Origin: Bryoerythrophyllum caledonicum | Taxonomy: Eukaryota; Streptophyta; Bryopsida; Pottiales; Pottiaceae | Assembly: GCA_963971425.1 (NCBI GenBank) | Contig: OZ020516.1 | Location: 32,414,199-32,478,198, forward strand | Direction of reading: 5' to 3' | Length of the DNA stretch: 64,000 bases | Shown: positions 7,865-64,000 of the stretch, piece by piece | How positions within the stretch are numbered: position 1 is the first letter of the stretch | Layout of the letters: each line of letters starts with the position of its first letter | Position numbers and translations under genes: made by a program | Notes under the pieces: generated by a model | The model's input: the letters and a program-made list of their open reading frames with translations, nothing else | Databases searched by the model: none | Told to the model about the DNA's origin: nothing

Positions 7865-8740
7865 TCAATAAAACGGTGCGCGCGCGGGATGGAACTGCTT
7901 GCGCGGATGCATTCTCGGGCTGTGCTCCTCGTGGCTGTCCGGCGTGGACGGGCCGTGCAGCCAGTCGTGGGCGAAGGCGGTGCCGGAGCCGAGGACCGAC
8001 ATGGGGGAGAGAGGGCATGCGCCGTCGTCGGAGTTCTTGCGCCGCTTGGAAGGCGGGGGTTCTAGCCCGAGAGATGCGCGCTTGCTCTGTTTCTTGGGCG
8101 TCGAGGGGGACATGAAGGCGCTAGTCGAGGTGTCGTGGTTCACGGAGTCGACGACGCCGTCGTGGCCGTCGCTGACGGACGGGGCGAGGTGGCTGTGGCC
8201 GTCGCCGCTGTTGGCGCGGCCGCTGAATCCCAGGACGCTCCAGGAGTCGGAGGAGGGCGAGAGGGTGAGCGCCGGGTCGCGGTCGTGGTTGCCGTAAATC
8301 GCCACCAATTTGCAGTTGATGGAGCAGAATTTGACCTGGTCCGCGAGGCTGCGGTGGCATGTGTCGCAGTACTTGGGAGCGCCTTTGCAGAGCTTGGGCT
8401 GCGGCCGCGACTGGAGGAACACGATCTTGGCGCTATTGATGGTGTACGCCTGAATGTTGGCGACGTCGAGGTAATTCTGGATGTCGGCAATGCGCACCAC
8501 GTCGCGGTGGGACGCCTTGCGCACCTGCACGGAGGCGTGCCCCGGGTGAAGCTGGTGCAGTCCCTCCGGACAGTAGGGCCCCGAGCAGCACGACAGGCAG
8601 AACTGGTTCTTCTCGTGCTTCCCCGTCTGGTGCTTCTTGCAATGCCCGAAGAACTCGGTCCGCAGCAATTGCGGGAGCCATACCGGCCCCTCGCGCGGCA
8701 AGCCGCTCGTGGATTGCTCCATTCCAGCCACGAATTCCAT
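7865..8740 (-). CDS. PLATZ-family zinc-binding transcription regulator
   Basis: A 291-residue intact protein starting at ATG 8740 and ending with TGA at 7865-7867. PLATZ proteins are plant nuclear, zinc-dependent DNA-binding factors that mostly repress A/T-rich targets. The hallmark start GPVWLPQLLRTEFF at about residues 18-31 is followed by a Cys/His-rich region (CKKH, then CLSC, then Cys/His residues to about 75). Next come the conserved DVVRIADIQNYLD and INSAKIVFLQSRPQP, and a second zinc motif C-x2-C-x10-C-x3-C near residue 130. A basic KRRK (nuclear signal) and a C-terminal RK..HPARAPF, a variant of the family's RKGIPHRAP tail, follow. His spacing in the first zinc region is slightly unusual. 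A second Met lies at residue 7. The whole coding region lacks introns, whereas many plant family members have them. The only intact gene in the window; the body is strongly CpG-rich. Confidence 0.95.
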   Translation of the reverse strand: MEFVAGMEQSTSGLPREGPVWLPQLLRTEFFGHCKKHQTGKHEKNQFCLSCCSGPYCPEGLHQLHPGHASVQVRKASHRDVVRIADIQNYLDVANIQAYTINSAKIVFLQSRPQPKLCKGAPKYCDTCHRSLADQVKFCSINCKLVAIYGNHDRDPALTLSPSSDSWSVLGFSGRANSGDGHSHLAPSVSDGHDGVVDSVNHDTSTSAFMSPSTPKKQSKRASLGLEPPPSKRRKNSDDGACPLSPMSVLGSGTAFAHDWLHGPSTPDSHEEHSPRMHPRKQFHPARAPFY

Positions 8741-34109: not shown

Positions 34110-35525
34110 CCTTATTGAGGATTTAGTGCCAAACTACCAGCTACTCTCTTGACTTCAATTCTATGTGGTTTTGGTGTAATTTTTTCAGTTGATCAAAGGC
34201 TGAACTCACTAGTTGTTGACTGCTACATGTGTATTCATTCAACTTTGTTGAATTTGCAATTTTGTATATACTCAAGTTGGTGTCTTCATTTGTGTATTCA
34301 AATATTGGTACTCACCTAACACTATGGTAACTCTAATTGAACTTCAATCATCATCAACCTAACCCTGGAGTTCCCTCATTCAGAATTGATACATAGTCAA
34401 GAGCAAGTACCAAATTCGCAAAAATCTCCTTGATGTGCAAATTTCCTCCAATCTACACAGTACACAAAGTTGACAGAAATTAGTGAATGAAGTAAAAATG
34501 CACATGGCCTCGAGGTTTCGATTGCAAGAGAGCTCACCTTGGAAACTAGGAAGAGAAATGATCTGTAGGTTTGCATAGAAACCTTATATCCATGTTTAAA
34601 CCTTGTGCCTCAAGTTTACTAGTCAAAATTTGACTTTTGAACTTTGGACCTTTTGCTTTGTTTCTCCTTATGTTTAAACTTTTTACATATTATATTAAAA
34701 TTTCGGGCTATATGTAATACGAAGATACTTAGGAGTTTTTATCACATAGTTTACCATATAAATTTTATGCATGTGTTGCAGGTAAAGTGGGAAGGGTTGA
34801 AAAACATGTTGAACAACAACGACGGAATGGTGATTTAATGTTGAACGCCATCAAGCATTAGTGGGTGTACCGCTAACACTTGCAACGTATCTAGAGGTAA
34901 ACATTTATTTTTATACAAGTTTAAGATTGATTGTTGATTGATCTTCTATACTATGTTGTTTGTAGAATAACCTTTATGTCGATGTACAAACCCTTTTTTA
35001 TTACTAGCGATTGTAACAAATTCCAATGGTGTCAGTAATAGCAAGTAGACAACATGGTTCATTTTCTTCCCTAGGTTCAATGAATTCCCTTCGTTTCAGT
35101 GGATTCCCTTCGTTTCAGTTCACTTGGATTCAAAAGATTGCATCACACATGATTTAGATTCATTATCATCATGTCAGAAATGATATAAGTTCCATTTTAC
35201 ACCAATGTTTAGGGATGCAGAAGAGGTGTAGCAAATGTAACCCCTAGAGGATCAAGTGTCAAAAATGGGCTTTTTGAAATTTCGGTCAAGTTCCTATGGT
35301 GTCAATTTCCAACATTTCTCTTTGGAAATTTTACTGTAGAAAGGCATTACCAAGATTGTAGTGGGAAAACAATTTTTACCTAAATTGGACATTTGATTAA
35401 TAAGTTTAGGGTTTTGAATTTCAAATGGGGAGAGCAGGCAAGTCGGGCACGTCCAAAAACTGTTGCTAGGACACTCTGTTGAATGTGAGATTTTCTGTAC
35501 TTGCAAGTAATATTATTTTCCTTGA
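34110..35525. other. No recognisable gene
   Basis: AT-rich; short open frames lack motifs. A short tandem (CCCTTCGTTTCAGTGGATT type, two copies) is at about 35085-35120. Confidence 0.4.
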
Positions 35526-35529
35526 TGTT

Positions 35530-36130
35530 GTCAAAATAAGTTCTTGTCTTTAGTGAAAAATAGCATACCAACCCAGGTCAAACATTTTCACACATTGTCA
35601 GTCAATGCTGGGCAAGGTACCAAAAAAACCTAGATATCTTTTTATTTTTTACTTTTTATTTTTTCCACAAAAATTTGTTGTGTAAACCTTCTAATTGACC
35701 ATTTGGATTAGCAATCTAAAACATATTAAGTTCACAAAAAATTACAGTGTTAATTAACAAATTCCGAACTTCCACTCCTTGCATAGATGTTTTGAATATG
35801 CTACACCTGTTCCTTACCTCTAAAAATTGGTGTACAAGGAACCAACATCATGCTTAACAAGATGGTAATGGATTTAGACCTTGTGTAGTGCAAAAATTTG
35901 ACACCAAGCGAAGTCAAAGTCTGCTGATCCATTGCACGCAGGGAAGAAAATGAACCATATGCTTCACTTCAAACACTATAATCTTTCAATCCGTGCGGTC
36001 AAAGTTTATGAAATTTTGTTTACATATTACTCAATAAGTCTTAATTGAGATCCTACGGTCAAAACTAAAAATAAAAGTTTTTGTTTCCTTTTTTGTTCAT
36101 TGCACTAGAATCCAACAATTTTGAAGTGTT
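35530..36130. repeat. Dispersed repeat family A, copy 2
   Basis: The sequence parallels 32100-33080: CACACATTGTCA, the TAATTGACCATTTGGATT block, GAATATGCTACACC, the ACCAACATCATGCTTAAC block and TAATCTTTCAATCCGTGCGG occur in the same order and orientation. It ends just upstream of the DUF7869-type gene. Confidence 0.75.
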
Positions 36131-36440
36131 TTTGGTGTAAGATTGTCTTTGTACCTTCAGGGAAAAGACTTTGTGCAAGGAGTTCATACTCTACAAATTC
36201 TTTTTTTTTTCATTTCAAAGTTGTTTAATTAAAAGGTCCAATATCATCATCATACTTTGAACAGTGAATATGTGTTTAGAAACATATCTTTTATCAGATG
36301 AATGGTGCTTTGAAGGTTAACAATTAGTACATGTATTTTGACTAATGTGCAGCCATAATGTTCCTATTTTTTCAATAATGACAATGGAGAGCCGCACGAT
36401 TTAGACTCCTTCGATACGACCACACATCCAAAGAAATAAT

Positions 36441-39400
36441 ATGCATTCCAATAGCTCTGTGGGGGCTCGATTAGTACGAGCAGCACGTGCAAGGCAAATT
36501 CAACAGAGATTTGTTGGGATCACAACATCTGAATTGGAAAGGGCAGTAGAATTTCTTTCTGAGAAAGGACCTGTGGTGGGCTTAGCAAGCAGGGAGCATG
36601 CATTAAAAAGTGGCATGGAATTGAATGGGTCGAAGTTGTTCCCATTCGAGGTGGCCGTGCGTATCACTAGGGTAGATGATGCATTGCATTGGACCGGAGA
36701 GATTGTAGGAGAACGCCTTGGCATATGTGTGGGCTTGATCATTTGTTGGCATCGGTCTTTGCTACGTGTAGTGGCTGTAGAACCTGATATTACAAGTGTC
36801 CATCGTGACATTGGATCACAGATAGCGCCTTCACAAGTGATGGCCCCAGAATTTGATTTTCCTGAGTTCATCAACACACCAAGATCCACCAAGAGGTCTC
36901 GACGTAGGAGTCAAGTTTCAAACGCTGTAGATGAAAATTCGCCCTTTTCCCAGCCTACTCCTTTAAAGATCCAAGATTTGCCCCATGTAGATGGATTTGC
37001 TTATGTTAAACCAGCATGTCGTCCATACTCTATGCAAAATACGAGAAGGAGAGATTCAAGAGAGCCATAATTGACAGAAGCTGCACCATCTAAGGTATCG
37101 CTTGGAAGCGTCCAATTTGCAATGGCACAAGGAGGATGCAAACGCAATTATTTGAGGGACGTTCCAGCAAAGTATGTATTAGACATGCGATATAATGCAT
37201 GGGCTAATGAGTTTTCAGTACGAAGTACTTGGGTGAGACAAATGTTGGTTTTTTTTACACAAGAACGGAAGGAACTCGTCGAGACAAGTTTGTAACAAAG
37301 TTAGATGGGAAACAAGTTTGCAATGCTTGCTATGCTCTTGGGGTTGGATATTCATAGAGGCGCTTTAAGCAATTAAAGAAGGACTGTCTAATATATAGAA
37401 GAGTGACATTGATTCACGGCAGTACCCTTTCAGATTCGATCAGAGAGAGCACTAAAATGTTTGCGGCAGAGGCTTGCTTTAAATTGTTTGTCGATGAAGC
37501 AGGTTGTCTTCAACCCCATCGTTGTATTTGCCGTAACAGTGACAACGAAGTGGTGCCTCTTATTCTCCTTCCTATGAATACAGCCAAATTTGATGTAATC
37601 AATTACATGAACGAGAAGGTCAAGATAATTTGTATTGGGGAAACCATTTCGATGAGTTCGTTCCGGAGGATGTGGCGCATGAAGTATCCCCACGTTCAGG
37701 TACCTCCATTCTCGAGATTCTCAAAGTGTTATCATTGTTGGGAGTATAAATGTGCCATGGAGGGAACCACCAATGCGGATGCAAGGATAAAGATAAAGGA
37801 GTTGTTTATGTTGCATCTCTGCAACCAGATGGAAGAACGTAGGCAGTATTGGATATTCAAGAGGTCGTGTTATATTAGCCCTGAGTTGTACATGTGCATC
37901 ATAGTGGATGGCATGGACCAAAACACGACCATGGTCCCGAGGATGCGTCAAACTATAAAGAATATTGAACACCGGTTTGTGAAGACCCATGTGTGTGGTG
38001 CTCTTATACATGGTATTGGTTTATATTGCGACATGTGGTTTGGGGCTCACCACAAACACGATAGCAACCAAGTGGTGAGTACATTGTTGTACGTGTTAGG
38101 AGATGTGCTACGGAGGAGGGGCTTTTTGCCACCAACATTGCGAATCCAGGCGGACAAGTGCACATGCGAGAACAAAAACATTTATATGTTTGCTCTATGT
38201 GCTACATTGGTGGGATTGGGGTTTTTTCAGGAGGTGGAACTATCTTTTCTTATAGTGGGCTATATACACAAAGATATTGATCGACGCTTCAGTTGTATAT
38301 CAAATACGGTTGAAGAGGTCGGACGTGGACTTGTTGAAGGAAATGATGAGTCTTATAGAATGAGGAACATCTCCTACGGAGCCATTTATTAGCGCCCGGC
38401 TGCTAGAGAATGTATGGGATTGAAAATTGTTCATAACTCCTCACTTACTGATAGGTCAGGATTCATTAGTGGGCATAACATTTCCGCACCACATGTGATT
38501 TTATATGGACAATCGAGAAGGGACTCGTGAAGTTCGAGTACAACACAAACTTTATTACAAGGATCCATGGGGACCGGAGGCAGGGACAAAAACTTTGAGG
38601 TTGTTGCCAAGTAGGGATGAATGACCATTGTTTGCGAAAGTATTTGTATCGGACGAATGGGAGTTGAAGGCGTTGGATGACTTCATTGCATATAAACAAA
38701 GGTGCATTCAAAGATTACAGTATGAGGACAAGAATCGTGAGGCAAAAGTAGAGGATGAAAGATTGAAACTCTATTTAGCTGAATTTCCACACAAAGACCG
38801 TAGCAATGAGCATCGTTCCTCACCGTTTTGGCCTTTCGAGTTCTTCAACATCGGACCTACAAAGAGTACATCTTTGGATGTAATGGATGGTGAAAGTGAA
38901 GAAAATCGCGAGATAGATGTCGTAGAGCAGGTAGTGACGATGCTTCCAAATGCTGAGGCTTGAGGATACTTTGGTCTTCGTAAAGGAAGACCCTCTAATC
39001 AAGCACTGCGCAGGGCACAACGAACAAAGTGCAACTATGTTGACGAAAGTGCCGAAGAAAGAGCAATGTATAAAGGTAAGCATGACCCATTTCCACCATT
39101 TAATCTACAATCTGATATCTGTTGTGGACAATTTGTAGCCTTGAGTGTTGATCAAGCAGAAATAGGAGGCAGTGTACCATTCTATGTGGAGAAAGTGATT
39201 GAGGAAGGAAAAAATCGATAGAGACTTAAGATAAAGGTTTGTTGGTATTGGCCCAACATCCAAAGGGGGGTTGTTGATGGACATGGGTCTTCTGCGTAGC
39301 GGTATGCAAATTGCATGGACTTATTCTGGGAGCCATCTGGGGAGAGCCATAGTTGGGTAGAGAAAGATGCATGCATTTTTTCATGGGTAGATTCACCGGA

Positions 39401-44182: not shown

Positions 44183-47100
44183 TTAATCATCTAAGCTTGA
44201 GGATTCTTTATTGTGTTTCCGCTTCCGTTTAGATCGGCAAACATTTTCGGGAAGAGAGAGCTCGCGAAGCACCACCGTATTGTGGCCAGGTACCTCATCG
44301 CAATCCTCATCGTCTGCATCATCGCCCGATGATGAGAAGTTCTCCGCTGAATTTTCCAAGATTGGTGCCACGTACTCCTCAATCTCCGAGGCCAAGTTTT
44401 ATAATTGTAGCTCGGCTCCAGTAGTTGATTCGGCGTTCACAAGTCGTTTTACTTGGATATTCTTTCTTTTGTCTGTTACTCCATCCATGTTTTTAGAGCG
44501 GTTGCCTTTGGCCCCAATGACTCTCTTCGAGGTTCCGCTTTGCCAAGGTCCCGTGAAGAAAGGGAGAGTACCATTGTTCTCGCCCCTCCGTGTCCCTAAA
44601 TGGCTGCTCATAGTAGAGGACCCAACCCTCGCGGATGGAAGTTGTGGGGTTAGTATCGTGCACTTCACACCACCATTTGGGCCAAGTGCGCTACGGTGGA
44701 CGGGTGGCCGAACTATGGTTGAAGAGGTCTTTTCCTTTACACGTAAAAGAGTTCTTCCGATCGATGTGGTACTTTCAGCACGTGGCCGCCGAAACAAATC
44801 TTGGAGTGGCATGTCTTCCTCTGAGTCCAATTCTATTGCTTGAGGCAAAACTATAGTGCTTCTCACAACTTCAATGGACCCCGTGGTGGCCATTGGCTCA
44901 TGGGATTCATTATTGTTTCCACCACTGGTCACTTCGTTTCCATTGTGAGGAAATGTATTGTGCGCTGCAATGCCAATGCCATGACCGTCGAGATCATGGC
45001 CATCACCACTAGAAGGGCGTGAGGCGCTAGAGCCATCTGAGTTGGGAGACTGATTCTCCAAGATGTTGTCATCTCCATCAAGATTGCCCCCCAATGCCGA
45101 CCCATCTTCCTCTGCCCTAGCTTCTTGGGCACGGTCTTCACCCAATAATTCTACTACAGTATGGATTGCTTCTGCGTCGACATCATCAAACACAAAAGGA
45201 TCCACTGGGTCACCGAGGACGTTGTAAAAATGGTCACGTAGTGCATCTCCACCGTGCCCGTTGTTTGCAGAGTTGTCTCTAGGTGGGCTATGATCAGACA
45301 TAGGGTTGTTGTCATCGGCTAGGTCTTCCCAATCACCGCCCATCCAGTTGTAACCCCCATCATTCAACTCGGAGCCCTCATCTTTTGTGATTGAAGGAAG
45401 TCCCCCATCTGGATCAAACTCCTCCAAATGCACATTCTCCTCATACCATCGAATCAAGTCTGGTCGAGCACATTCTCGGAGCAATCGGCTATTTGTGTAG
45501 ATGTAAACCAAATCTTCCACTTTCTGCACTCCCAAGCAATTTCGGCTCTTACTATGCACGAACGAATACATGCTCCAATTACGCTCACATGACGAGGCCA
45601 AGCAGGTTTGTGCTAGTATACACTTTGCAATGATAGGCAATGATTGCCCGCCCACGCGGTTCCACCATTGATGAGGCAACAAGTTGATGTTTTCAATTTC
45701 CCCAGCTTCCAATGGTGAATATGGGCCTCGCAATTCTTCATACTCCGTGATTTCGAGCATTACCGCCAAAAAAGACACTCCGAGTGGACCACAGAGCGTC
45801 ATAACAACCTTGTTTAGGGCCCTTTTGGCCTCCCCATTGATTTGAATTTGCAAGTTATTGGCTAGATAAGGATTCAATAAAGCCCCTGCATAATGAAGAT
45901 CTGTTGTCATCATCTTACAACGCCGTAGGAATGATCCTTTCAGGCGAGTTGCAATTGCAGCTGGCATGTTCAACGGCGCATTGCGCAGCTTGAACACGTG
46001 CTCCTTTAGCTCGTTCATGGTTACCCAAACAATTTCCATTGCCAGAGTGTCACCATCAAAAGTCCGCAATGCCTTTAGTACTGGTGCCACTACAAAATCA
46101 AAGTTAGTGCACCGATGCTAGAAAGTCTCGTCTAGAACAGTGGCCCGCACCTGCGATGCCTTTGCATGGGCATGGTGCCCGTTTTGCCTATCAAAAAGAG
46201 AGGATACGTAGGATATCCATGTTGGGTCTATCTCAACCATCTCCTGGGCATTCTTCACTTCCAAGAGTCAACGGATCATCATATAATTGCATGCAAACCT
46301 TATTATTGCTGGCCACAAGAGAGACAATTTTGGCAAAAATCGACGAAAAAGAGCCATGGGCACATGGTGGTTCCGGATATACAATGCAATTTGTTTTGCC
46401 TTCAGGACGAGGTCTGCAAATATGTCTTTCTTCTCCCAGTCCTCGAGGAGGAGGTCCAAAATATGTGGACAACACCTTCGAGTATATATGTACGGGTACT
46501 CATCGTTGACCTTCTTCATTGCCCCCAACATGTTTGAAGCATTATTGGTGCACACTTGGACCACATTCAATTATCCAACCTTACGGATAAAACTTTTCAA
46601 TTGGTCCCCTATATATGCCATAGATTTCTTCATACCCGTGATGTCTATAGATTCCAAGAAGATATCATCCATTGAACATACGAGCATGATATTCATGAGA
46701 GGGCGGCGAGTAACATTGTCCCACCCGTCCGAGCATATTGTTGCCCCATACTTGGCAATATCTACGCCGGTCTTCTTGTCCACCAGGTCTTTCACTTTTT
46801 TTTAAAGGCTCAATGTATGTCGTCCTCATGGCATTGTACAATGGCGGTGTATAATCGAAACCTACCTTTGACGTTGCGAGGGTGGCCTTGATGAAGGCCA
46901 GATGTCTAACCATGTTGAATGCAACGTTGGCTTCATAAAAAAATTGTGCCCATAATTCGTCCAACTCTTTTCGTTTTTCTATTTGGTAAGCCTCTAGGAA
47001 GCTCTATTGTCGTACAAATCTTGGTGTTGATGATGCTGTTTGGCTTAGAGGATTTGTGGATTGCGCGTTCTCTTCATTTCGAGTTTCCAAGAAACTACCT

Positions 47101-50285: not shown

Positions 50286-50289
50286 CCAA

Positions 50290-52085
50290 CACTAGTACAA
50301 AAGTGGTAAAAAAAAACCGCACTGGATTCAGCATTGCGGTTCTTTTGACCACGTTTTTGCTAGGTGGAAATCGAGTGCCAAAATTTAGGATTTCTTGTGA
50401 CAATGGGTTGGATATTTCCATTGTCGCATAATTTATTGCGCATTCTTGACTTATAATTTCATATTTATTGGAGGTAATAATTGATAAATATGAAACAAAT
50501 ATCTAGCAATTGGTTCTCAATATGTTGTAAAGCCTGTTACATTGTCGTATTGGAGGCATATTATTACATGTGAGCATATTCTAACAACATGCATATGAGT
50601 GACATATTGCGCATGCATCTAATTAATTACTTCAAGCCATATGGCTATACGTTGTCATTAAAAATTCATTGTAGTGGGACAACTTTATAAGATTCAAGCT
50701 ATATCACATGAGATCCATATGAAATAATCATCTCAAATTGCATTTTCATCTCAAATTGATTGTCATGTAAGAACCATATATATTGCTACTTAATTGGATT
50801 CATTGTCAAAGAGAACTTCAGTGCCACTCGTTTTCTAGTGCCACTTGTTTTCCAACACCTCTCGTTTTCTAGTATCACTCACAGGGTCATAGTCCAGTGT
50901 TTCTTGTTTTTTGGTGCCGCTCAAAATCCAAGGTTGCTCGTTTTCTAGTGCCACTCAAGATCTAGTGCCATTCAAAATCTAGTGCCACTCAAAATCCAAT
51001 GCCACTCTTTTTTTAGCGGCACCCAAAATCTAGTACTCCTCGTTTACTAGTGCCACTAAAACTCCAGTGTACAAGAGATTTGCAATATTCAACATTTATT
51101 TTTCAACAAATTGATCATCATCCACATTCAACTTTTCAAAATGTTAGGACGTCCAACATGAATCATCATACCATCAATCAATCAACCTTACTCAAAGTCA
51201 TTAACGATAGCATATTAGGTGGCATATGTTGTACAACGTGTTACGTTGTTGTGTTGGAGGCATGTAGTATTATTGCATGTGAGCATCTAATTAACAACAT
51301 GCGTATGAGTGACTTGCGCATGCATCTAATAATTAATAATTGATATCGTAACTTCAATGCATGTTGTCATTCAAAATTCACTGCAGTCGGACAGCTAAGA
51401 TTCAAGTGTCACATGGAATCCATATGAAATCCTCTCAAATTGCATTTTCATCCCAAATCATTGACTGTAATGTGGGAATCATTGCTACTTGGATCCATTG
51501 TCAAGCAGAACTTCAATGCCACTTGTTTTATATTGTCACACGTATTCTAGTGCCTCTCGCTTTCCTGTATCGCAAAAATTCCAATGTTGATCGTTTTCCA
51601 GTGCTACTCAAAATCCAAGGTTGCTCATATTCTACTGCCACTAAAAATCTAGTGCCACTCATAATCCAATGCCACTCAAAATTCAATGGCAATGGAATTC
51701 CATGCTACTCATTTATGAGCGGCATCCAAAATCCAGTAGTGCTCGTTCTCTAGTACCCCCCTTCTTGTTTGTATAGAGTTGCGGTTGTTTTGTCCATGAT
51801 GTCGGAACAGTGCTGAGTTGTTTCTAAACGGGCTGTCCCAGATTTTAGGCCATAACTCCCCCATTTTTGGGATTGTTTGGAGGGGTAATATACCGTTGGA
51901 AGCGTCTTAAAAACTTGCTTTCAACCGTATATTACACGATCAAAAAATTCCCAAAATGAGGGAGTTATGGCCAATAAACCGAGACAGCTCATTTTAGGAA
52001 CAATTCAACATTGTTTCGACAGCGTGGTCAAAAGAACTGCAACTCGAATTCAAGTGCGGTTTTTTTTGCCACTTCTGTACTAGTG
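50290..52085. mobile_element. CACTA-type non-autonomous element with foldback right end
   Basis: The left end CACTAGTACAAAAGTGG and the inverse of the right end CACTAGTACAGAAGTGG form terminal repeats of about 65 bases. Both continue into poly-A, CCGCACT and TTCTTTTGACCACG. CACTA termini define the En/Spm superfamily. The right 300 bases (about 51785-52085) are themselves a hairpin with arms containing GGCCATAACTCCC and TAATATACCGTTGGAAGCG, shared with the foldback at 54077-54426. The 1.8 kb element has no transposase. The flanks (CAA on the left, ATA on the right) do not form an obvious three-base duplication. Confidence 0.75.
50515..51720 (+). repeat. Internal tandem duplication, period about 707 bases, with GTGCCACTC subrepeats
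   Basis: GCATGCATCTAAT occurs at 50611 and 51318. Around it GTGAGCAT, CCATATGAAAT, CAAATTGCATTTTCATC and the block before TCAATGCCACT recur in order. Each half ends in an array of CTAGTGCCACTCAAAATC-type units of about 20-24 bases (50830-51060 and 51540-51750). Confidence 0.8.
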
Positions 52086-52191
52086 ATAAGGCTTCATAGA
52101 TTCACATTCTAGATAAGATAGGAAAGACACGTGACAAGTTCTTACACTTGAGATATACAAGAACGATCCTAATTTGGATAGAAGAGTACCT

Positions 52192-53180
52192 CTCTACCAA
52201 CCAAATGAACTCATTGCGCATTGTCTTGGAGAAACTAATTAACAACTTGCGATAGGCAACCTCCAAGATCACTCCCTTGGTTGGATAGAAAACTGTGACC
52301 GAAGTAGCAAGGTGAACTCAGAAGTAGATCCAATAAATTATACGTTTTGTTGAATGGCACCTGTCTATGATAACCAATCAAGTACTTGAAAATTTCTGCA
52401 ACGTCCATCCCGAGGTCATAAGGATCGTAGTTGAGAAGTCCAAAGTCTATGTAGATGGACGTTGTCCGAGGATTGTAATTCCTAGTCCCTAAATGATAGA
52501 TCAATAGTCGGAAGTCGAGTAGAACAAGAGACAAACAAAATTATTCACAGGAAGTGAAGAGCTGTAGTACTACCTTCCGTACTACCATGATGCATTTACA
52601 GTGTGTCTTGAGCCCCACCAATCCATAAGCAACGTTGCACCTAACATCCTACATGACCCAACAGTTAGCAAGTTCAATAATAAGATATCAATGCGAGTCA
52701 CCAGGATCAATCTAAGCAACTTAATTACTTCCAAATTTTGTGCAAATCCCATATTTCAAACCTCATCAACTCAAACCTTCAACTCCACCAAAACATCCAC
52801 TTGAAACCAAGAGTATGCAATTGTTAGATAAAGAGAACTCAAAAATCTCTAAATTTCTATATATAATATCTTACACTTGAACTAACCTGCTTTCCAACTT
52901 CGGCAGCGTTCGCCAAAGCAGAGATGATTGGGCTATCAATGTTGGTGCCATACAGAGTGGCCTTCATTGTTGCCACATGACATTCCAAGAAAACTTTCAG
53001 GAATTCAACACCAGATTGAAACCCAACCCTTTCTTTAATTAGCTCACGAAAGCAACGGATGAATTGATACCTTTAGGTCATTGGCCGTTGCTTCTACTAA
53101 GTGCTCGATATTTCTCATAAAATTGTCGTAAGCATGGTGAAGAAGAATATCCCTTTCTTTATGACTTCAAAAACATTAGC
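52192..53180 (-). pseudogene. ppk1-like: Polyphosphate kinase 1 (PPK1)-like pseudogene, C1 and early C2 region
   Basis: PPK1 makes inorganic polyphosphate from ATP. Exons read leftward, most joined by GT-AG-type signals. A, 53180-53071: NVFEV, a one-base loss, then RDILLHHAYDNF, the PPK1 'DILLHHPYDSF' motif. B, about 52976-52887: MKATLYGTNIDSPIISALAN then AAEVGKQ. C, 52800-52729: VDVLVELKV, TGA, VDEV, TGA, NMGFAQNLE, matching 'VVVLVELKARFDE..N'. D, 52648-52574: NVAYGLVGLKTHCKCIMVVR. E, about 52523-52361: YHLGTRNYNPRT then DVAEIFKYLIGYHRQ, matching 'HLGTGNYNPRTA'. F, 52260-52192: VAYRKLLISFSKTMRNEF. Exons D and F keep the reading phase. Lesions: the indel in A, two TGA at conserved Arg positions in C, a poor splice junction before C, and Gly to Arg in E. 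Transposons lie on both sides. N- and C-terminal exons were not found. Confidence 0.82.
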
Positions 53181-53956
53181 CTGCAAACAAGGATAAAATA
53201 GATGATGAAACCAAGATATTAAGATTTGACGATAATAAAGAAGAATTTTTGAAGTAGACTTAACCCCTGTAATCGAGGATGGATCTTTGCCGTCTATGGC
53301 ATGTAAACAAGCAGCGAGTTCACCTCAAGCTTGAATGGTAATGAATCCAGCTCTATTCATAGAAACAAGTCAAGGTATCATTATCAACGAGTTTATGTCA
53401 AGACACTTGTAAAGTCACCAAAAGTATCAATAAGAAACATAATTATACGTCTTAGTGAGAGCCAAGCTCTTCCATGTATAGCTCCAACCCGGGCATGTGT
53501 TAACTGGAGGTATTAGTTTCAAGTGCCCCTCATCAACGTCATCGTTGTGACGTCTGAAAATCTCATGATCGTCTGATTTTGTACAAATTAAATTAATTTA
53601 TGTAATTTGAAAGTATTTTTTTTCCTGAATATTTTATAAGTTTGCCGTGGTTTAAGACGATTAGAATCACTTCTGAACTGCGGAATGAGCTGTCTCCGCT
53701 CTGCATCTTTATTCACAACTTTTGTACGTAGAAACAAAAGAGTGTTTATTTTGCTGTGGGATCAAATTTGGGAAAGGTCAAGCGCACAAACTCAGTAGTT
53801 AACAGCGAGAAGAATCCAAACATTATCCATTTGTCAATACGGTGAACATCCATGTGACAACGATATTGGTGCAATAGAACCAACAAATCCTATCAACTCC
53901 AACCATGAATCGTGATAACGCACAACACATGCCTTAAAAGAAGGAGTGCTACTTAC

Positions 53957-54001
53957 AAGTAAAAGAAGCGCCTCCATCCCAGAAACGTTGACGTTGTACT
54001 C
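53957..54001 (-). other. Candidate small upstream exon, perhaps of the PPK1-like gene
   Basis: A 45-base segment encoding EYNVNVSGMEALLLL, bounded on the minus strand by TTTTCAG before it and GTAAGT after it, both very good splice signals. It faintly resembles the 'GL..LM.L' stretch before the catalytic domain of PPK1. The 53.2-53.9 kb DNA between it and exon A contains no further clear exon. Confidence 0.3.
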
Positions 54002-54426
54002 CTGAAAACATCCAAGAAATTGGTTAATTCTCTACCTTAAACTTAGTCCATCAAACCTCTTCAATGCAATGGCAACCACTAGTACAAAACAGGGGAAAAA
54101 AAACCGCACTCGAACTGGAGTTACGGTTCGTTTGACCACGCTGTCGGAACAGTCAGCGCTGTTCCTATGTTGGGCTGTCCTGGGTTTTTTGGCCATAACT
54201 CCCTCATTTTTGGGAGTTTATGGACGTGTAATATACCGTTGGAAGCGTGTTTTTAAGGCGCTTTCAACGGTATATTACACATCCAAACACTCCCAAAAAT
54301 GAAAGAGTTATGGCCAAAAAACCCGGGACAGCCCGATTTAGGAACAGTGCTGACTGTTCCGACATTATGGTCAAACGAACCGCAACTCCAAATCGAGTGC
54401 GGTTTTTTTTTCCTTGTTTTGTACTA

Positions 54427-55315
54427 CACTAAAAGTTTCATTTAGTGTAATGGCACGAATAGTGTACTTACCTTAGTACACTAATTGCGAACAAGTTGAC
54501 AAATAGTGTACTAAATGCAAACAAGTGTACTTTCTCAAAAGATTATTTGATCAAAATTTACTTTATCAAAGATTACTTCATCGGAATTCACTTTATGGAA
54601 AATTAATTTTTTTAAAGCTTACTTTTTCAAGAGATTACTTTTTCAAGTTTTACTTCTTGAGAAGTTTACTTTTTCAAAATTTCCTTTCCAAACATTTACT
54701 TTTTCAAAACTTTACTTTTTCAAAACCTTACTTTTTCAAAACTTTACTTTTTCAAAACTTTACTTTCAAAATTTTACTTTTTTCCTAGTTTACTTTTGAA
54801 AAAGCTTACTTCTCAAACGTTTACTTTTTCAAATCTTTACTTTTTCAAATGTTTACATCTGGAAAAGCTTATTTTTACAAAAGTTTACCTTTTCAAAAGG
54901 TAAGTTGTCTTTTTACCCTAAATTGATGTTTTTCCCTAGTTCTTGTTTTTTTTCAAAAATGTTGTTTTCTCCTAATTGTTTTTTCCTAATTGTTGTTTTC
55001 GCAAAAATGTTGTTTTTTCCTATTTGTTGTTTTCCCAAATTGTTGTTTTTTCCTTATTGTTGTTTTTTCCAATTTTTTCTTTGTGAGTTTTATTTTTTCT
55101 CTTCTTCACCTTTTTGTACACATAATTCTCTTCTACTTTCAATACACTAAACGTGCACGAGTAAAAAAGTTAATATTCCAATCTTTACAAAAGTTCACAA
55201 ATAGTGTAGTAGTTCTCATTTAGTGTACTATTTTGTCACTACACTAATTGCGTAGTTGACAATTAGTGTATGGGTTCGTATTTAGTGTCCACTACACTAA
55301 ATGAAACTTTTAGTG
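54427..55315. mobile_element. MITE of the CACTRAAA family inserted in the foldback, TA target duplication
   Basis: The left end CACTAAAAGTTTCATTTAGT and the inverse of the right end agree over 27 bases with one mismatch. TA flanks it at 54425-54426 and 55316-55317, and the insertion point is the TA of the host element's terminus. TTTAGTGTA subterminal words match the 550-base relative at 11377-11926. The 889-base interior is mostly AT-rich minisatellite. Confidence 0.88.
54528..55085 (+). repeat. Two AT-rich minisatellites inside the MITE
   Basis: At 54528-54900 there are about 17-base units of TTTACTTTTTCAAAAC. At about 54930-55085 there are units of TTGTTGTTTTTTCCTAA. They explain the Phe/Leu/Ser-rich open frames seen here, which are not genes. 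Confidence 0.88.
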
Positions 55316-55656
55316 TAGTGAACGTTCTAAAGAAAAGCAAGGATATTGAGCACCATATCAAATCCAAGAATGATGAGCATCAAATTCAACAACTTCACCA
55401 CAAGTAACACGATCTCTCTGCATGAGAAAGAAAACCCTCCAAAGTTAAGATCACGCACCCTTATTAAAATTATTCTTTGGATGGTTTTCCTATGATACTA
55501 TAGTACATTGGTTTGAGATAGAAATGCAAATTGAATCATTATAAGCACAAAGATCAACTTTTTTAATATTGAGTTTCGGGCAAGCAATTTACCAACATTA
55601 ATTGTTGGCGTCTTGGGCAAACTCATGAAAGATGTTGTTTGATGGTTTGATCAACT

Positions 55657-56691
55657 TCAAACTCCGCGGCGTTGCCGACTCCCTCGACGACCCCGGCCCC
55701 TGTCCATACCATTGGCCGAAGGTCTCCTCCCATCAACAAGTGCATTTAGTCGTTGAATCTCTGCTGTAGGTACTGCCAAGCCAATGTCGACGAGGGGGGG
55801 TTGGAACTCCACTCCATTCAGGTCTCCAGGCAAGTGCATTCCAACAAGATCGCCACAAATTCCAAGTATTTGCTCGTCTGTTCCATCAACGATGCGTCTG
55901 GACCGCGGCTCCTTTTGTAGGACAATTCTCCATTGAGGGTGTAGCCAATCCTTGACAAAGAACACCTAGCAAGATTTTTTGAAGATCACCATTGTTATTA
56001 GAGAGGGTATTATGTCACCAATTTGTTTTAAACTTGATTATAATACAACATATTATATATGTGCCATACAAATGGTAACAATGGATGCTAGATGTAGTCA
56101 AGTTGCTTACTTGACGGACCGTGGCAGGGAGTACGTATGGTTCTCTAGTAGAAGCAATCCTGTCATGGTACCTCACAAGTGTAAATCCATAGTCGTCAAC
56201 TGTGGTAGATGGACGATAGTTGTGGTCATTTTGGATCCACGACCCTCTAAATACGATCCTCCTTCTTGTCGAGTAACGCACAACTATGATCTCCTTCAAC
56301 ACGCCCACCATGCTGATGCCAGCTGACCGACCTTCTTCTGCTCCAAAAATACTGGCAATTCCATAGTCTTGTGTGAGAAATCCATTATCAAATTCATCGT
56401 CCTGCACCCGGAAGTGGTTTCCGTACGCCCAAATCTGTTTATAGCAATGCGCATCTCTTGATGGGAGACTTGATAACCGCCTTAGCTCCATGTCTATGTT
56501 CTGAGCACCCCGAGCCCGGACCAGGTTGGTTGTATAGGCATGCAACCATTCTATGAAGTCGGGCAATTCTTCACGCATGTTTTCTGGATAGCAAATTTGC
56601 TCCCTCCGTGGCAATCCCGGTGCCGCGGCGGCTGCCCGAAAATTCAAGCGTGCCGTGTCGAGCTCAAATTGAAGTCTTTGATATTGCCTGC
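55657..56691 (-). pseudogene. CACTA (En/Spm) transposase C-terminal region with DUF4216
   Basis: Two exons joined by a GT-AG intron: 56691-56111 and 55965-55657 (donor AA|GTAAGC, acceptor CTAG|G). The first opens after a CCCGCAG acceptor. It carries LRRLSSLPS...YKQIWAYGNHFRV, typical of the TNP2 tail, then VGVLKEIIVVRYSTRRRIVF, DDYGFTLVRYHD and EPYVLPATVRQ, continuing as VFFVKDWLHPQWRIVL, the DUF4216 signature. The C-terminus is Arg/Gly-rich and ends with TGA. TNP2 binds element ends and catalyses transposition; its catalytic Transposase_21 region should lie right of 56.7 kb but is absent, so this is a fragment, though open over its length. Confidence 0.72.
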
Positions 56692-56699
56692 GGGACAAA

Positions 56700-59600
56700 T
56701 GATGAATACATTAGTGATTCTCATGTCTTGTCCGTGGCATATTGTAGCATTCAACAAAAGTTAAAACACGTGTAAGCCCAAAATTACACCCCTAAGAGGA
56801 TTTACTTTTTAAGCCCACAAGGTCCTAGTATAACATGGTTTAAACCACTCCATGTACTGATCTATAACTTGTATTTTTTATTGGATTCGGATCTTTAATA
56901 TATATATAATTATTTATTAATTTATTTATTAATGTTAATTATTATTATTTATTTATCTTTTATTTTATTTTATTTTTATTTCTTTAGATTGTTTGTTCTC
57001 CGCAGTAATTAAGTGTTATTTAATTCGACTTCTTGAGTAAATAATTTTTACCATGCATTCATTAAATAACCCTAAAATTAGTTACTATTAATTTTGCTAT
57101 TTTTATTTTATTATTATTATTTACTTTATTTATTTTTTCTTTGAATTTTCACCGAAAATTCATTAACTCTCAATTCCCACACCCCACGTCGGATTTCTAA
57201 TTTTTTTGAGCGTAATCTTATTATTTTCTTCTTCTCTACTCAACTATGATATTGCATGCATCAGACCTTCGCTCCAGATCAAAGAATTTCAAGTTGAGTT
57301 AAACGTCCATAACTTTTACATGCAAGGACCAAATCCAGAGTTTTTCGAGCTTAAGTAGACTGAATTCTCAAGCTCTACACATTGGTGTATTCAAAAATAC
57401 CATACCAAGTATCTATTTCAAGCTGGGATGACCAGCCCTTGGAAATTTGCAAAACTAAAACAACGCAGATTCAAGCACCAACGCATGATGCATCAAGCAC
57501 AAAACACATGATCCCTGAAGAGAACCATCATTGTTGGACCCTTGATGCACCCAAAAAGAACCAAACAAAACCAAAATAAAACAAGATGAATTAAAAGGAA
57601 GCCAAACACAACCCAACAGCTTGAACTCCACAGTCTTCACCTCACACAGCCACCTTCACCACGCTCCACACTTCGCTTCAATCCTTCGCAGCAACACTCA
57701 TTGCCCATAGCCGCCCTCGCACTTCATCGCAGCTCCGCACTCTCTCACTCTTGGCGCCACATGTCCGTCCCAACTCCGGCGCAGCGACCCTGATCAGCTC
57801 CGGTACCATTCATCCCAGGCAGACTTCGGCACGCACACACAAGTTACGCGCTCCACCAACCTCCAATTCAATTCAGAATCAACACAAAGAGAAATCGATC
57901 AACCAACAGAGAGAAAGCTCGAGATCATCAAACTGAAATCAGCTGTGGTTGCAACCAAGGACTGGCATCCATGATATGCTCGAACTCCTTCTCCATTCCG
58001 TTGGTTGCTGTCTTTTTCGGCGCACAGAGACATCCCTACGCGAACTCCAACAGCCCTCTTGCGGCTCACGGCACCGGACTCCTCACGCAGCGCATTTCAG
58101 CAACCCGAAATCCCACTTCAAAATAAAATATAAAATAAAATAAAATATAAAATAAAATAAAATATAAAATGTCGTCTTCACAGACACATTTCACAGGTCC
58201 GGCACTCCTCCTTGCCTTCCCTGCCAATCTCTTTGCTCTCGAGGTGCAAGATTCCTGATCTATTCCCCACTGTACTGCGCAAGCGAGAAGATGGCCACCA
58301 CCGGCCTACAATCCATACAGACCACGTCCGCTCTCGCTCCAGCACCCTTCAAACCCTAATCGCGTTGTTGCCTTCCAGGCACCGCACACGGACCCCTCCA
58401 AGGTAATGCTCCAACTTTGAATGCGAGGGATGAGCCACTGCGCTCCGCTCTCCGATCGCTCTCAGCAATTGCAATCCACCAAATGTGTTCAAAAACACAC
58501 GGAAGACACTCCAGTTGCATCAAAAATAAAAATTAAAATAAAATAAAAATTCTTCCCCTTAGCAGCTCGCGCGCTCCCTGGCCACCATCGCGCTCGCGGA
58601 CAGATGACCGCCTCGCACAACCGCCCCTCGCTCGGCACACGTTTGCGCGCTCGTCGAGCACCACAAAAACCCTCGCGCTTCGCTCCACAGCACTCCGGAG
58701 CTCCCAACTTCGTCGTTGCTCTTCGGGCTCCACACCCAGCTCTCACCACGGCACACACGAGAACAAGAGAAAACAAACAACCCCCTTCTCTCTCGCATCA
58801 GCACGCGCCTACAGACACGCGCTCTCCAATCGCCGGCACTCCTTCACCGGAACCTCCACCCGATCGCCACAAGTTGCTCGCCTTCCTGCTCGAACATGCA
58901 CGATTACCACGCCCACACAACCGGGGCTCGCTCCTGCCGATTTGAGCACAGACGTGCTCACACTCACACACACTTCGTCACACACAATCACCACCTCTAC
59001 CGCAGCACCAAAACCGGATTCTCCCTGATCGCACAACAACAACAGTCCCCTCGCGGCACACTCGCGCACGACTCCCGCGCATACACAAAAAAAACGCTCT
59101 CCCCAAAAACAGAGACTCCCAGCTCATCTCCCAGAGGTTTGGCCTGGCTGGGTATATTTTTTTCCTTTTTTTTTCTCTGTTTTTTCTTTCCTTTTCCCCG
59201 ACAAGACTGGCTTTCTTTTAATGAGGCAGCCCATGACCTCTCACAGAAGTGCACGATTGGCTACTTACAGCCGTTTTTGCATGTTTTAGTTTATCACGAG
59301 CATTAACTCGCCGCTTTGCTCCTGACAAGCCGCCCTAAAATTAAATCCATGATGGCAAGAATTGTCATGTGGCATGTGCATGGGGAAGTACCTCCAGCCA
59401 CCTTCTTTTCTTTTCTTTTTCCTTTTTTTTTCTTATTCTTTTTATCTTTTAAAGACTATTACACTAGATCTAATACTATCTACTGATGATTTGCAATTTA
59501 CTTATAACTTCAAAAACTAACCACACAGCTGGACTCCCAGCACCCTAATTAGTCTATCTAAATTTCCTTAGCATTTTTGAAGGTTCCTAAGTATTTTTCC

Positions 59601-60960
59601 CGAACGGTCAACCCGCCGATCCACTAGTCAAACCCTAGAATAAAATAGCAATTCAACTCGGGAAATTCTAGAAGTTTTACCACTACTTCGACCTGCTAGT
59701 AGACACTCTTCCAATTTTTCCCATATTTTTTGACCCATTTCTCAAATTTTAGCCATTTTCCAAGGACTTTTCTTTCCATCTTTTTTTAATCTTTCTCTTC
59801 ATTTCCATTCCACTTCCACTACACTTTCAAGCATATTAGTAGGAAGGAGGAAGAATAGGAAACTTAGTGTCACATCATGGCACTAGGCCTATTAATCTAG
59901 GAATTTGACTCTAATAGATGGGTTGACCACCAATTTAACTAAAATTTGGTTAATACTATAAAAAAACTCGGAAAAATGAAGAAAAAGAGTGAGGGCCCAT
60001 TTTGGCTACTCACAACACGCAACAATCATTCTGGCATTGTTAGACATGAAAGATATATGACTCATATTTCTATCGCAAGTTCTATATATTTACATCCACT
60101 GAAGGAAAAAAAGGGTGGAAAGCAAATAATGTTGCACATGGTTTGAGTCGGCCAAAAGTTCTACTACCTCTTGGAAGGCTCAAAAGCCATACATGATTAC
60201 GCGTTTTGTCGGTTTCCAAACTTGACACTCATTGTGTGAACTACTGCACTCCACTGTGCGTGAAATCCTACTATTCTTCTCCAATCACAAAAGACTTGGG
60301 CCATGCAAACTCTTCTAGAATCGCCAATGACTTGTACCACATTGGGGTTACTGTTAAGATGAAGTGCTTAGTGTGGATACAAAGGCAGGAGATGTCCTCA
60401 AAAGGTAGGACCACTGCAGTTGGTAGCAAGAGTTTAACTGTGAGTTGCAAGAACAATGAGGATGTTCAGTCATGAAAATTAAGTATTGACTAAAGTCTTA
60501 CAGTGACTGTCTTTTGTGATAATTCATGGTCATGGTGAGGGTCAACAAACACCATTAATGCCTAACCACGCTCAATAGATAGGATGCAATTATACGGCGT
60601 GGTGTCCTAAGCTATTTACTATGCTTTCTTGAAGACTGGTCACCCGCCAATATTGGCCTGAAATTGCCATTAATATGGCGGTCGAAGCTTTAATGATGTA
60701 GAGGCGACTAACCCTTTTATTAGGTGGCAGTGCAATCCATGCCATGTTCTTGAGCCGCACTCTACACTTCTAGGGCAATGCTATGCATTTATTGTAACTC
60801 CGTCATGCCCATTAGATTTTAGTTGCCATACATGCCATTGAGGATTTCATACATGCATTCATATGGAGCAGTTTTCTTCACCAATGAGACTATAAATTTA
60901 CAAGCCACAGAAGGCCACTCTCACTACACAGTTCAATCCACTCCTATATTTGGATATTTC
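56700..60960. other. Long region without a recognised gene; C-rich block at 57.6-59.3 kb
   Basis: 56.7-57.4 kb is very AT-rich. 57.6-59.1 kb is C-rich with ACACAC, CTCGC and GCTCC words and many overlapping plus-strand frames of no recognisable family. It could be a long terminal repeat or a gene's leader. A T-run lies at 59150-59190. 59.3-60.96 kb is ordinary AT-rich DNA; the frame at 60206-60475 shows no motif. Confidence 0.4.
58120..58170 (+). repeat. AAAATAAAATAT microsatellite
   Basis: About three units of roughly 17 bases (AAATAAAATAAAATATA). A shorter similar A/T tract (AAAATAAAAATTAAAATAAA) occurs at about 58518-58550. Confidence 0.9.
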
Positions 60961-60963
60961 AAG

Positions 60964-63900
60964 ATGGACGCGAATGCTGAAGCTGTGAATCTTGCAGATC
61001 CGGATGTAGTGAAAAGCACGCAGTTTAGTCATGAGCGTATCAATCCTCCAATTCACCGTGAGGTATATAATTGTCTACAACTTAGTTTATCTTGTTCAAT
61101 GGACCAAAATTGTCATTTCATGCAGGAAGTGTTCAAATCTTGTACTGACTTTATGTGTGCCTTTTTGTGCGTCCCTCGTAGGGATTCCCAATTGGATTGT
61201 CACTACATTCTCAATATGAGCAGTCTCAGGTGTGTTGACCGCCATCTCTACTAAAAATGTTGTGCATGTACGATAGTGTTCTTATGTAATGTTCTCTTCT
61301 GCAGTTTGTCGGAGCGCATCAAGTGCACGGGGGTATGCCTTCCTTGCATTATGGACCACGTCAACAACAATGGCCCAACTATGCGACAGGTTTTGAGCAT
61401 GCATATGGCATGCTCGGGGTGGGATATTCAGCACCTTACGCTCGCGGCAACTATGTCCCCATGCATCTTCAACAACAAGGTGCAATGCTGGAACAATATC
61501 CTCCGCACCAGCTCCCATTGCATGGGGCACAGGGGCGTGGAATTCATCCAATGTCCAGCCCAATTGTCAAGCCCAATTGCACCCAAGCTTGTGGGGGGCA
61601 TGTTAACCCAAATGCCACTTCTGTCCCAAAAGATGTTTCCGACATACATGATCATATACCAAACATCAATGCGACATTGTCAAGTCTTCCTTTGTCTTCT
61701 ACTCCAGCTGGATCACCGAACAGTCCTGGTGGAAGCCATATGAGCAAGGGGCTCACAGGTGATGGCGATAGTGCTAGCACGGAGGAAGAGAGGGGTCCAT
61801 GTAAGGACAAGAACGCTCGATCAATACATGGTAAGCTTACTGCCAGTAAGTTAAACACTCCATATGGTACATCCCGTAGGAAGGCTATGAGGATGGATGG
61901 AAAGTTGTATTTGCGTGAAGTTAAAATGGCATTGTCGGAGAATAGGGTCCCCCAGGTCGCACTTTTACAAGATGAGAATGGACGTATTTTGCGATACTCT
62001 TTGCAGTTCAAAAATGCTCTCAAATTGGTTGCGTTATCATTGGTCCAAAGTGCTTATATAGACGTAAAGGATGTGGAAGTAATGACGGACATAATGGATG
62101 AGGTCAAAAGGCAATTTACTATAAGCACACCTCTACAAGAAAAAATGGTTTCAACATATTTATTGGGTTCATTTAAACGAAACCGGTCAAAATATCATGA
62201 GCACTGGATTATGCACAAGGGCCGAAAGAAACCTGATGATTGTCCTACCACGACTTGGTTGAAATTGATAGAATATTGGAACTCCGAGGCAGGTGACAAG
62301 GAATGCAAGCAGAATCAGAAGAATGCATCTGGCCGTGCAAAACGTGAGGTATGTCAAGTGAGATGATTATGGCTCATGCATGATTGTATTTATTGTCTGT
62401 GTGTATTATTGCCACATTTCATGTTGTTCTGCAAACGGGGATATCACTAGGCTTGACTTGTGCAGAATAGGGGCATGTCCAGTGAGTGCATTTCTGCAAG
62501 GAAGAAGGTGAAGACGAATGTTGTGCCTTTGGACGACATGGATCAACTATTTGCTGACTTCCCAGCAAAGAGTACTCTATATGCCTAACCTACATCCACT
62601 ACTCGGGGCTCAATTGCCAACAAGGCACGAGCCGAGGTTGACATCTCTAGCCAGCTTCAAGCTATGGTTTCTTTGTATGTGAAGAAGGCAATGGACGAGT
62701 ACACATTGGACAATGTTGGAGCTCAATTACATGACGATCGTACGAAACGCAAGACGGAAACCCCAATGGCGGATGCGTTGCTGAAAAGGGGCCCGTTGCG
62801 GACTCCACATCAAGTGATGAAGCGATCATGCAAGCCTTTTGTGGGTGATCCAAACCCTTCCACATTTCCCGGATCTTCAACGCCAGTTCATAAAGTAAAT
62901 CAGCGACAGGCCCAAGTCGGACTAGATACAATTGTCATTACGCTTTTGTCGTCTGGAAAATCTGCAAGTGGTGAAGACGGATCACTTTCAGGGGATGGTA
63001 GGAAGATTGTTGGTGAATCAAATTGCCAAATTCTTGATGGACCGGAAGAAATATCAAGCTTCATGGATGTAGAGCACTTACGCGCCGCTTCCTCCATGAA
63101 GCCAACCCTTGATTTGCGTACGCCTCTTACACCGTGGAGTAAAGCCACACAAAATGCATCTCGTCTAAGCAAAAAAATTAGCCTTGGTGCATGAACATTA
63201 GTAGAGCATACGCCTGCAGGTGATGAATACGACTCGCATGGCAATGGTGGCGATGGCAACGACAGCGAGGGTGGTGTGGCTGATAAAGGATCTAGTGAAG
63301 AAAACAACCTTTGTAAGGGGCATGATGATCTTAAAGGTGTGGAAGACAGTGATGGCTCTAGAAACAATAGAGGATGTAGCAAAGACGATGAACCTCCAGT
63401 GTTTCCAAGGCAACCAAAGAAACTAGTCAAGGGCAAGGAGAAAGTGATTTCATCCACAAGGGCACCTGCAAGGTCGAAAGGAAAGAAGAATTTGTCCAGA
63501 AAGGTAGAAAAGAAGCATCGGGCGCCAACCATCGATGCTTCAATTATTGCAAGACTAAAAGTTATACCAAGGCCTATGAATTCGGTAAGTGTTTACTGCT
63601 TTGCTTTTAATGATCCAAGCTCCTATCCTTGAGCTACCATATTCTTAGATCTTGTAGTGTTGTTTGCATGATTTGATTTGGACTTAAGGTTGTGTATTGC
63701 ATTTCTTCTAGGAACCCATCAAGGCAAGGACCAAAGTATGGCTGCTACATAAGTGTGTGCCAGGTAGCGTGGTTGCTGAGGGATACGCTGGAGTCAACCG
63801 GAATTCTAGAAGCCAAAGCGACCTCCACATGCAATGTAAATCGGGTACTCAGATGGTAAGCATTGTTCGTGTCTTCTTTGATGGCATACCGGTGATGTTG

Positions 63901-64000
63901 GACAAAGAAAAAAGATTTCCTCCCGATGTGGATTTGGTGGATATGGTTGTTGGTATGCCCAACAATCCAATCTTGTGGGAAATCCCATATCTACGTCCAG
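60964..64000 (+). pseudogene. CACTA-associated accessory gene (Transposase_24-like), multi-exon, cut by the window end
   Basis: ATG 60964. Exons in phase with GT-AG introns: 60964-61062, 61182-61229, 61305-62348, 62466 to about 63582, and about 63713 onward. Exon 3 starts with a Gln/Pro/Gly-rich stretch and ends with a helical domain (STYLLGSFKRNRSKYHEHWI, then WLKLIEYWNSEAGDKEC). This matches the plant Transposase_24 pattern in which a helical 'K..W..FK..L' block is followed by 'W..L..YW.S.......K.NR..'. The last exon (VAEGYAGVN..., RVFFDGIPV) resembles the DUF8039 region found at the end of such proteins. Stops at 62586 (TAA, where Gln fits) and 63192 (TGA, where Arg fits) break the long acidic and basic linker. 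Role in transposition is inferred. Confidence 0.68.

Follow-up and report, generated by a model that had tools for sequence, protein, structure and literature searches.

A broken PPK1 gene fragment, very probably captured by a long CACTA transposon, in the moss Bryoerythrophyllum caledonicum

The stretch of DNA analysed here, referred to as the window, comprises 64,000 nucleotides of the Bryoerythrophyllum caledonicum assembly (437 Mb, 894 contigs) and corresponds to C3:32414199-32478198. It contains seven ordered exon remnants of a bacterial-type polyphosphate kinase (PPK1) gene at 52189-53353 on the minus strand, and a very short eighth remnant near 53498-53439. Spliced alignment placed residues 532-754 of the 963-residue Ceratodon PPK1 at 53353-52189, on the minus strand and in order. 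The remnants cover residues 532-561 (53265-53353), 562-598 (53071-53181), 599-628 (52887-52976), 629-652 (52729-52800), 653-677 with the GLKTHCK motif (52571-52648), about 679-730 with the HLGT.NYNPRT motif (52361-52516) and 731-754 (52189-52260), where the copy stops at the next exon boundary; the two motif-bearing remnants were also identified by Pfam. The eighth remnant, residues ~408-427 at 53439-53498 on the same strand, was weak on the tblastn match alone (E 0.54), and it is backed by the DNA at 53475-53429, which is 91% identical over 47 bases to an intact-looking PPK1 gene on contig C10. An earlier note, made from the sequence of the window, had claimed six minus-strand PPK1 segments in the correct order, and all six were recovered within 52189-53181.

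When the segments were joined (171 aa, with X at the stops), the product matched the Pfam family PF17941 (PP_kinase_C_1) with E 5.2e-37, NCBIfam polyphosphate kinase models with E down to 1.5e-51, and solved structures of polyphosphate kinases, 1xdo among them, at about 4e-18. On the sequence scores, chance is excluded as the source of the match. Five open frames were also compared with Pfam singly; four matched PF17941 at E <= 0.0012, two of them exceeding the curated cut-off, and the frame at 52102-52317 gave no match on its own. In the window copy, all six junctions between exons coincide in residue position with introns of the C10 gene. In a search of about 5.8 billion proteins, the best-scoring relatives included mosses, then streptophyte algae (Spirogloea, Closterium), followed by other algae, environmental proteins and bacteria. 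The identity was 74% to Ceratodon purpureus and 68% to Physcomitrium patens, over 67% of the query.

The spliced alignment showed that this copy is broken. W551 is replaced by TAG, and R638 and R643, both in the remnant of residues 629-652, are each replaced by TGA. One base has been lost near residue 571, in the remnant of residues 562-598, causing a frameshift. Splice acceptors have also been lost. The statement in the earlier note that several segments are joined by GT-AG signals holds for the introns after residues 652 and 730, which keep both signals according to the spliced aligner, but it was generous since these are only two of the six. No credible trace of PPK1 before residue ~408, between residues ~428 and 531, or after residue 754 was found in the window by spliced alignment or among the listed tblastn matches of six PPK1 proteins. 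Of the 963 residues, ~408-427 and 532-754 are all that is present, whereas a functional PPK1 would have an uninterrupted frame through the N-terminal, the middle and the two C-terminal domains. The motif LYRT reads LYGT and ARFDE reads V*VDE, while the histidines of GLKTHCK and HLGT are kept, so that the set of catalytic histidines and phosphate-binding arginines, whose positions and roles in the PPK1 motifs we take to be those of E. coli PPK1, is incomplete. Because of the stops, the frameshift, the missing parts and the altered motifs, the window copy is predicted to be unable to make polyphosphate kinase, and synthesis of the polymer would not be expected of the fragment. Judged by its sequence, the feature is a truncated PPK1 pseudogene.

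A search of the rest of the genome for an intact paralogue identified an apparently intact PPK1 on contig C10, with relatives in Ceratodon, Physcomitrium, Spirogloea and Closterium. At C10:5526688-5521952 (minus strand) there is an open PPK1 frame of 784 codons that runs from residue 178 to the end, followed by TAG. The spliced alignment resolved 20 exons, and all 19 introns are GT-AG. Upstream of 5526688, the region of the first 177 residues, one candidate exon contains a stop and one junction is non-canonical. The C10 protein is 93% identical to that of Ceratodon (732/784) and 79% identical to a Physcomitrium isoform (621/782). Read by eye, the protein alignment shows breaks in Physcomitrium isoforms and in a paralogue from Ceratodon at residues ~261, 356, 392, 426 and 754, which are likewise exon boundaries of the C10 gene. 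In a tree of 48 PPK1 proteins (47 chosen from 241, plus the C10 gene), the C10 gene stands beside Ceratodon, and the neighbours of the mosses are zygnematophyte algae. A supported branch separates these from the rows labelled as bacterial, but long branches meet in the tree and several of its rows are environmental. The 20-exon C10 gene and the streptophyte relatives bear out the proposal that this lineage carried a nuclear PPK1 long enough to gain introns. The PPK1 genes of Physcomitrella patens have been described with 21 and 22 introns, and horizontal transfer has been argued (Whitehead et al. 2013, PMC3680246). Intron-rich moss PPK1 is, on that account, known biology that has been in print since 2013, which lowers the surprise value of an intron-bearing PPK1. 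The C10 gene is the counterpart of these intron-rich, bacterial-type PPK1 genes in the moss nucleus, whereas the window copy, unlike the Physcomitrella genes of that report, is a transposon-borne fragment and not the gene.

The PPK1 remnants lie within a CACTA (En/Spm) transposon, a cut-and-paste DNA element, of which the part in the window spans 50290-64000 (minus strand). The homology to sister copies stops at 50290, and 69-bp ends are found in inverted orientation at C3:32464488 (+) and C3:32502550 (-). The whole element therefore occupies C3:32464488-32502550, a length of 38.1 kb, with its far end at the window-equivalent position 88352. Comparison of the sister copies defined the terminus TTTTGTACTAGTG (inverted: CACTAGTACAAAA) at 50290-50302 on the minus strand. 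This 13-base terminus is exact in 13 copies including the window, has one mismatch in two others and three in one, an old copy at C1:57.7M. The element is flanked by a 3-bp target-site duplication, TTG, at 50287-50289 (minus strand), with the partner TTG at C3:32502551-32502553.

A DNA search with positions 51700-54500, from which the C10 gene was excluded, found the PPK1 piece, whole or partial, at 19 loci including the window: one on C3, two on C4, three on C11 (one of these in two pieces), four on C1, and one each on C12, C7, C871, C2, C852, C846, C841, C861 and C8. Fifteen fetched copies were comparable on the right side, L020 and L021 stopping short of the point in question. In 13 of the 15 the match to the C7 copy (L015) ends at L015 position 7228-7229, which corresponds to window position 50290, and in the other two at 7219 and 7234. 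The flanks beyond the terminus differ between copies, apart from a flank common to C2 and C852. About 0.8 kb of the right flank of the C4:6.7M copy recurs (91%) about 160 bp past the end of the C12 copy, and these two right flanks are therefore not independent.

When the 69-bp end was used as the query, the 40 matches listed included 14 loci at which CACTAGTACAAAA ends form inverted pairs, 31.6-59.9 kb apart. The distances were 39.2 kb on C7, 31.6 on C871, 34.0, 37.1 and 54.9 on C11, 42.1 and 37.0 on C4, 39.4, 39.2 and 32.7 on C1, 38.1 on C3 (the window element), 49.0 on C12, 59.9 on C8 and 58.0 on C861. Half of the copies (7/14) thus have 37-42 kb between the ends, a measure that may include nested insertions and, at the far end, about 24 kb that was not read. 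Ends of similar score without a partner among the 40 matches were found on C2, C852, C846, C841 and at C11:1869927. The far end was compared in 13 of the 14 paired loci (C861 was left out); it reads CACTAGTACAAA in 12 of them and TACTAGTACAAA in the C7 copy. Identical 3-bp flanks were present at both ends in 11 of the 13 copies, TTG/TTG in the window element, and the flanks did not match at C4:6725434 and C12:15409067. CACTA ends together with a 3-bp duplication are described as marks of the superfamily (PMC8978399), and the family has both, the terminal inverted repeats starting with CACTA at 14 loci and the 3-bp duplication in 11 of 13 copies. In rice and maize, the duplications made by CACTA elements are described as 5 nt long, not 3 (PMC8903248).

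As a separate observation, the end pattern CACTAGTACAAAAGTGGGAAA occurs 309 times genome-wide when up to two mismatches are allowed, versus 0 for the reversed control, and several of the matches form closely spaced inverted pairs. A family of CACTA MITEs therefore seems, from these matches, to share the ends of the element.

The C7 copy encodes a Transposase_21 domain (PF02992, E 6.5e-24), with its core at C7:5044234-5044893, and a DUF4218 domain (E 2.6e-29); of seven C7 frames compared with Pfam, four had no match and one a weak one. When 150 candidates were scored, PF02992 was found in the orientation of the element within at least 9 of the 14 element intervals. Seven of these have stop-free PF02992 frames of 621-637 aa, while the C7 frame has two stops. 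The family as a whole carries a TNP2/Transposase_21 transposase, and the window copy is without the core. At 56753-60013 (unstranded), comparison with the C4 and C7 copies showed other DNA in place of their TNP2 core, for which reason the window copy looks non-autonomous. A strong GC skew (-0.32) was noted at 58001-60000, inside the replacing segment. An open frame at 56018-56710 (minus strand), without a Pfam match, is collinear with the region just past the C7 transposase core, and 60014-64000 (minus strand) is element body common to the C4 and C7 copies at 97-98%. An open frame at 61290-62363, on the plus strand and so opposite to the transposase, is conserved in the C4 and C7 copies and also had no Pfam match.

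A CACTA-type foldback common to other copies lies at 51776-52085 (minus strand), and about 26 bp separate its end from the captured PPK1 DNA. A second foldback, a CACTA-type MITE at 54077-54426, forms a later insertion of 1.24 kb together with a block of tandem repeats (54077-55320, unstranded), which is absent from all six sister copies compared. The possibility was considered that the two foldbacks bound a 2.6-kb mobile unit (51776-52085 to 54080-54426); this was rejected, as the first belongs to the element itself and the second to the later insertion.

The captured host PPK1 DNA extends over 52111-53475 (minus strand), comprises both exons and introns, and is ~83% identical to the C10 gene by DNA comparison. 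In the C7 copy the captured interval is about 2.25 kb of contiguous genomic PPK1, from L015 position ~3118-3138 to 5392, equivalent to C10 ~5525431-5523179. It starts inside one exon, ends inside the intron after residue 753, and matches C10 through exons and introns alike. The window copy has an internal deletion junction at 53429-53438 (minus strand), at which about 0.88 kb of the C7-type copies (L015 3184 to 4061, residues ~427-532) is missing. The same deletion is found in the C4:6.7M, C11:22.6M and C12 copies (L016, L017 and L025). The PPK1 reading frame is broken in both the window copy and the C7 copy. The introns are retained and align to those of C10, indicating that genomic DNA and not mRNA was taken up. 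The CACTA-type foldback begins 26 bp past the 3' edge of the captured piece, and no CACTA remnant was seen in 0.6 kb before its 5' edge. According to a published proposal (PMC8903248, PMC13317346), CACTA-type insertions that are neighbours and have compatible ends can move as one unit, taking the DNA between them along. Such joint mobilisation is perhaps the route by which PPK1 was captured, and the one neighbouring foldback fits it.

Among 18 copies, some of them partial, the mean pairwise difference was 0.040 in exons and 0.041 in introns, and 0.037, 0.037 and 0.047 at codon positions 1, 2 and 3; these means are lowered by inclusion of the near-identical C2, C852, C846 and C841 contigs. Since exons and introns are equally diverged among copies, no selection on the piece is seen, and after capture it appears to be evolving as if neutral. 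The difference from C10 was 0.11-0.12 in exons and 0.14-0.15 in introns for 15 of the 18 copies. The remaining three are L011 (0.160 in exons, 0.164 in introns) and the short L018 and L024, in which exons exceed introns. Second codon positions differ least from C10 in all 18 copies, as expected with constraint on the C10 side. The introns have diverged 3.6 times as far from C10 (~0.147) as the copies have from one another, which suggests that the capture predates most of the spread.

A different, decayed 5' part of PPK1 was found at 13 further loci (L027-L039), for example at L032:3094-5332 and L035:2594-5423. In the four of these that were spliced, the match starts somewhere in residues ~123 to ~214 and runs to residue 615; shared by all four are the replacement of W416 and R488 by stops and a shift of frame at residue 551. 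Of the 13 loci, nine are on a small contig or no more than ~170 kb from the end of a contig. Tandem repeats were examined in one locus, L032, where the PPK1 part is followed by six CCCTAAA units (6418-6459) and then by a 42-bp satellite (6483-7356). This spread is an event separate from the CACTA capture.

The earlier note had taken 52192-53180 as the nuclear PPK1 gene itself, which would mean an intron-bearing gene that works, or did so until recently, at its native locus. The exons are indeed ordered and at true intron positions, and the family match is strong once the segments are joined. However, the three stops, the frameshift, the lost acceptors and the missing N- and C-terminal exons, the presence of the piece at 19 loci and the intact-looking gene on C10 make this reading extremely improbable; a functional gene in the window is ruled out by the stops, the frameshift and the missing exons, and what lies there is a truncated pseudogene inside a CACTA transposon. 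Bacterial contamination is ruled out by the introns, the moss relatives, the intact-looking gene on a 26-Mb contig and the transposon context. That the piece is a retrocopy of PPK1 mRNA has a vanishingly small probability; the introns are kept and align to those of the intact gene, and no point in favour of a retrocopy was found. It could also be supposed that the copies were made by segmental or assembly duplication instead of transposition, given that C2, C852, C846 and C841 are near-identical and may be haplotigs or collapsed repeats, that C2 and C852 have the same flank, and that a repeat is common to the C4 and C12 right flanks. The shared boundaries, the 3-bp flanks that agree in 11 of the 13 loci checked and the transposase in sister copies leave this highly improbable, and the target duplications and shared ends rule out segmental duplication as the main cause.

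We are therefore highly confident that the window feature is a captured, dead piece of the moss's own PPK1 inside a long CACTA (En/Spm) transposon. A single capture of PPK1 as DNA would have taken place, perhaps through the joint mobilisation of two CACTA-type insertions that lay next to the gene or inside it. The element would then have spread through the action of its transposase, and the captured piece would have decayed without selection, leaving polyphosphate kinase to be made only from the C10 gene. Whether the captured piece is regulatory was also considered, for instance through small RNAs that arise from copies of the element and target the C10 PPK1. The copies are many, and the long foldbacks beside the piece could yield double-stranded RNA, but in the BLAST alignments the piece is ~83-87% identical to the intact gene, a low value for targeting by small RNAs, and this role is very unlikely. 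Slightly less unlikely, though still doubtful, is the broader proposition that, with a long CACTA family (31.6-59.9 kb) carrying one PPK1 piece and a second PPK1 spread beside it, the 32 pieces (19 + 13 loci), if transcribed, could be a source of small RNAs by which the one apparently intact gene is tuned.

The captured-fragment reading places the element beside the Pack-CACTA and transduplicating CACTA elements of Arabidopsis, rice and maize (PMC8903248), in which CACTA ends likewise enclose host gene fragments copied as DNA; here too a host gene fragment lies between the ends and the parental gene elsewhere. In the part of that paper on capture, neighbouring insertions with compatible ends are likewise proposed as the route. 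Pack-TYPE elements are described there as non-autonomous by definition. In contrast, the present family as a whole carries transposase, with sister copies that have an open TNP2 frame and 32-60 kb between the ends, and it is the window copy that has other DNA at that position. The duplications also differ, being 5 nt in that paper and 3 bp here. Tgm-Express1 of soybean (PMC1947982) is similarly a CACTA element with host gene fragments that keep their exon/intron structure, but it is described as 5.7 kb with five such fragments, whereas the present element is much longer and a single host fragment was recognised in it. A review (PMC6431247) calls the 16-20 kb En/Spm elements of the red alga Chondrus crispus "significantly enlarged". 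They resemble the present family in being larger than usual for CACTA and in having extra ORFs; the present family is longer still between its ends, 7 of 14 copies having 37-42 kb there, and carries a piece of a host gene. No report of PPK1 capture by CACTA, or of such elements in mosses, was found in the titles and abstract openings of the open-licence literature.

What is particular here is the long gene-capturing CACTA and, separately, the second PPK1 spread, mostly near contig ends. A striking signal of a bacterial gene with introns in raw plant sequence can be the cargo of a transposon, and two claims need to be separated, as the moss nuclear PPK1 is real and apparently intact in this genome and the window copy is another thing. 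In this moss family of gene-capturing CACTA elements, the donor gene, the captured interval, the target duplications and the transposase-bearing sisters are all visible in one genome. Moreover, pieces of one PPK1 gene have been multiplied by two routes, which matters for PPK1 copy counts and read mapping in mosses.

Other features were noted in the window. A LINE-type retrotransposon with endonuclease and reverse transcriptase domains, at 1-2694 (minus strand), runs off the window start. A PLATZ transcription-factor frame (PF04640, E 4e-26) lies at 7868-8776 (minus strand); its named relatives are from mosses, and the higher-scoring rows are unnamed. With the C10 gene, this frame points to a moss near Ceratodon as the host. 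A DUF7869 frame (E 6e-34) at 37358-38389 (plus strand) is perhaps part of another mobile element, and nearby DNA at 35238-36162 recurs (85%) beside a C4 element copy. A long open frame at 44402-46117 (minus strand) has a hAT dimerisation domain (E 4.6e-5).
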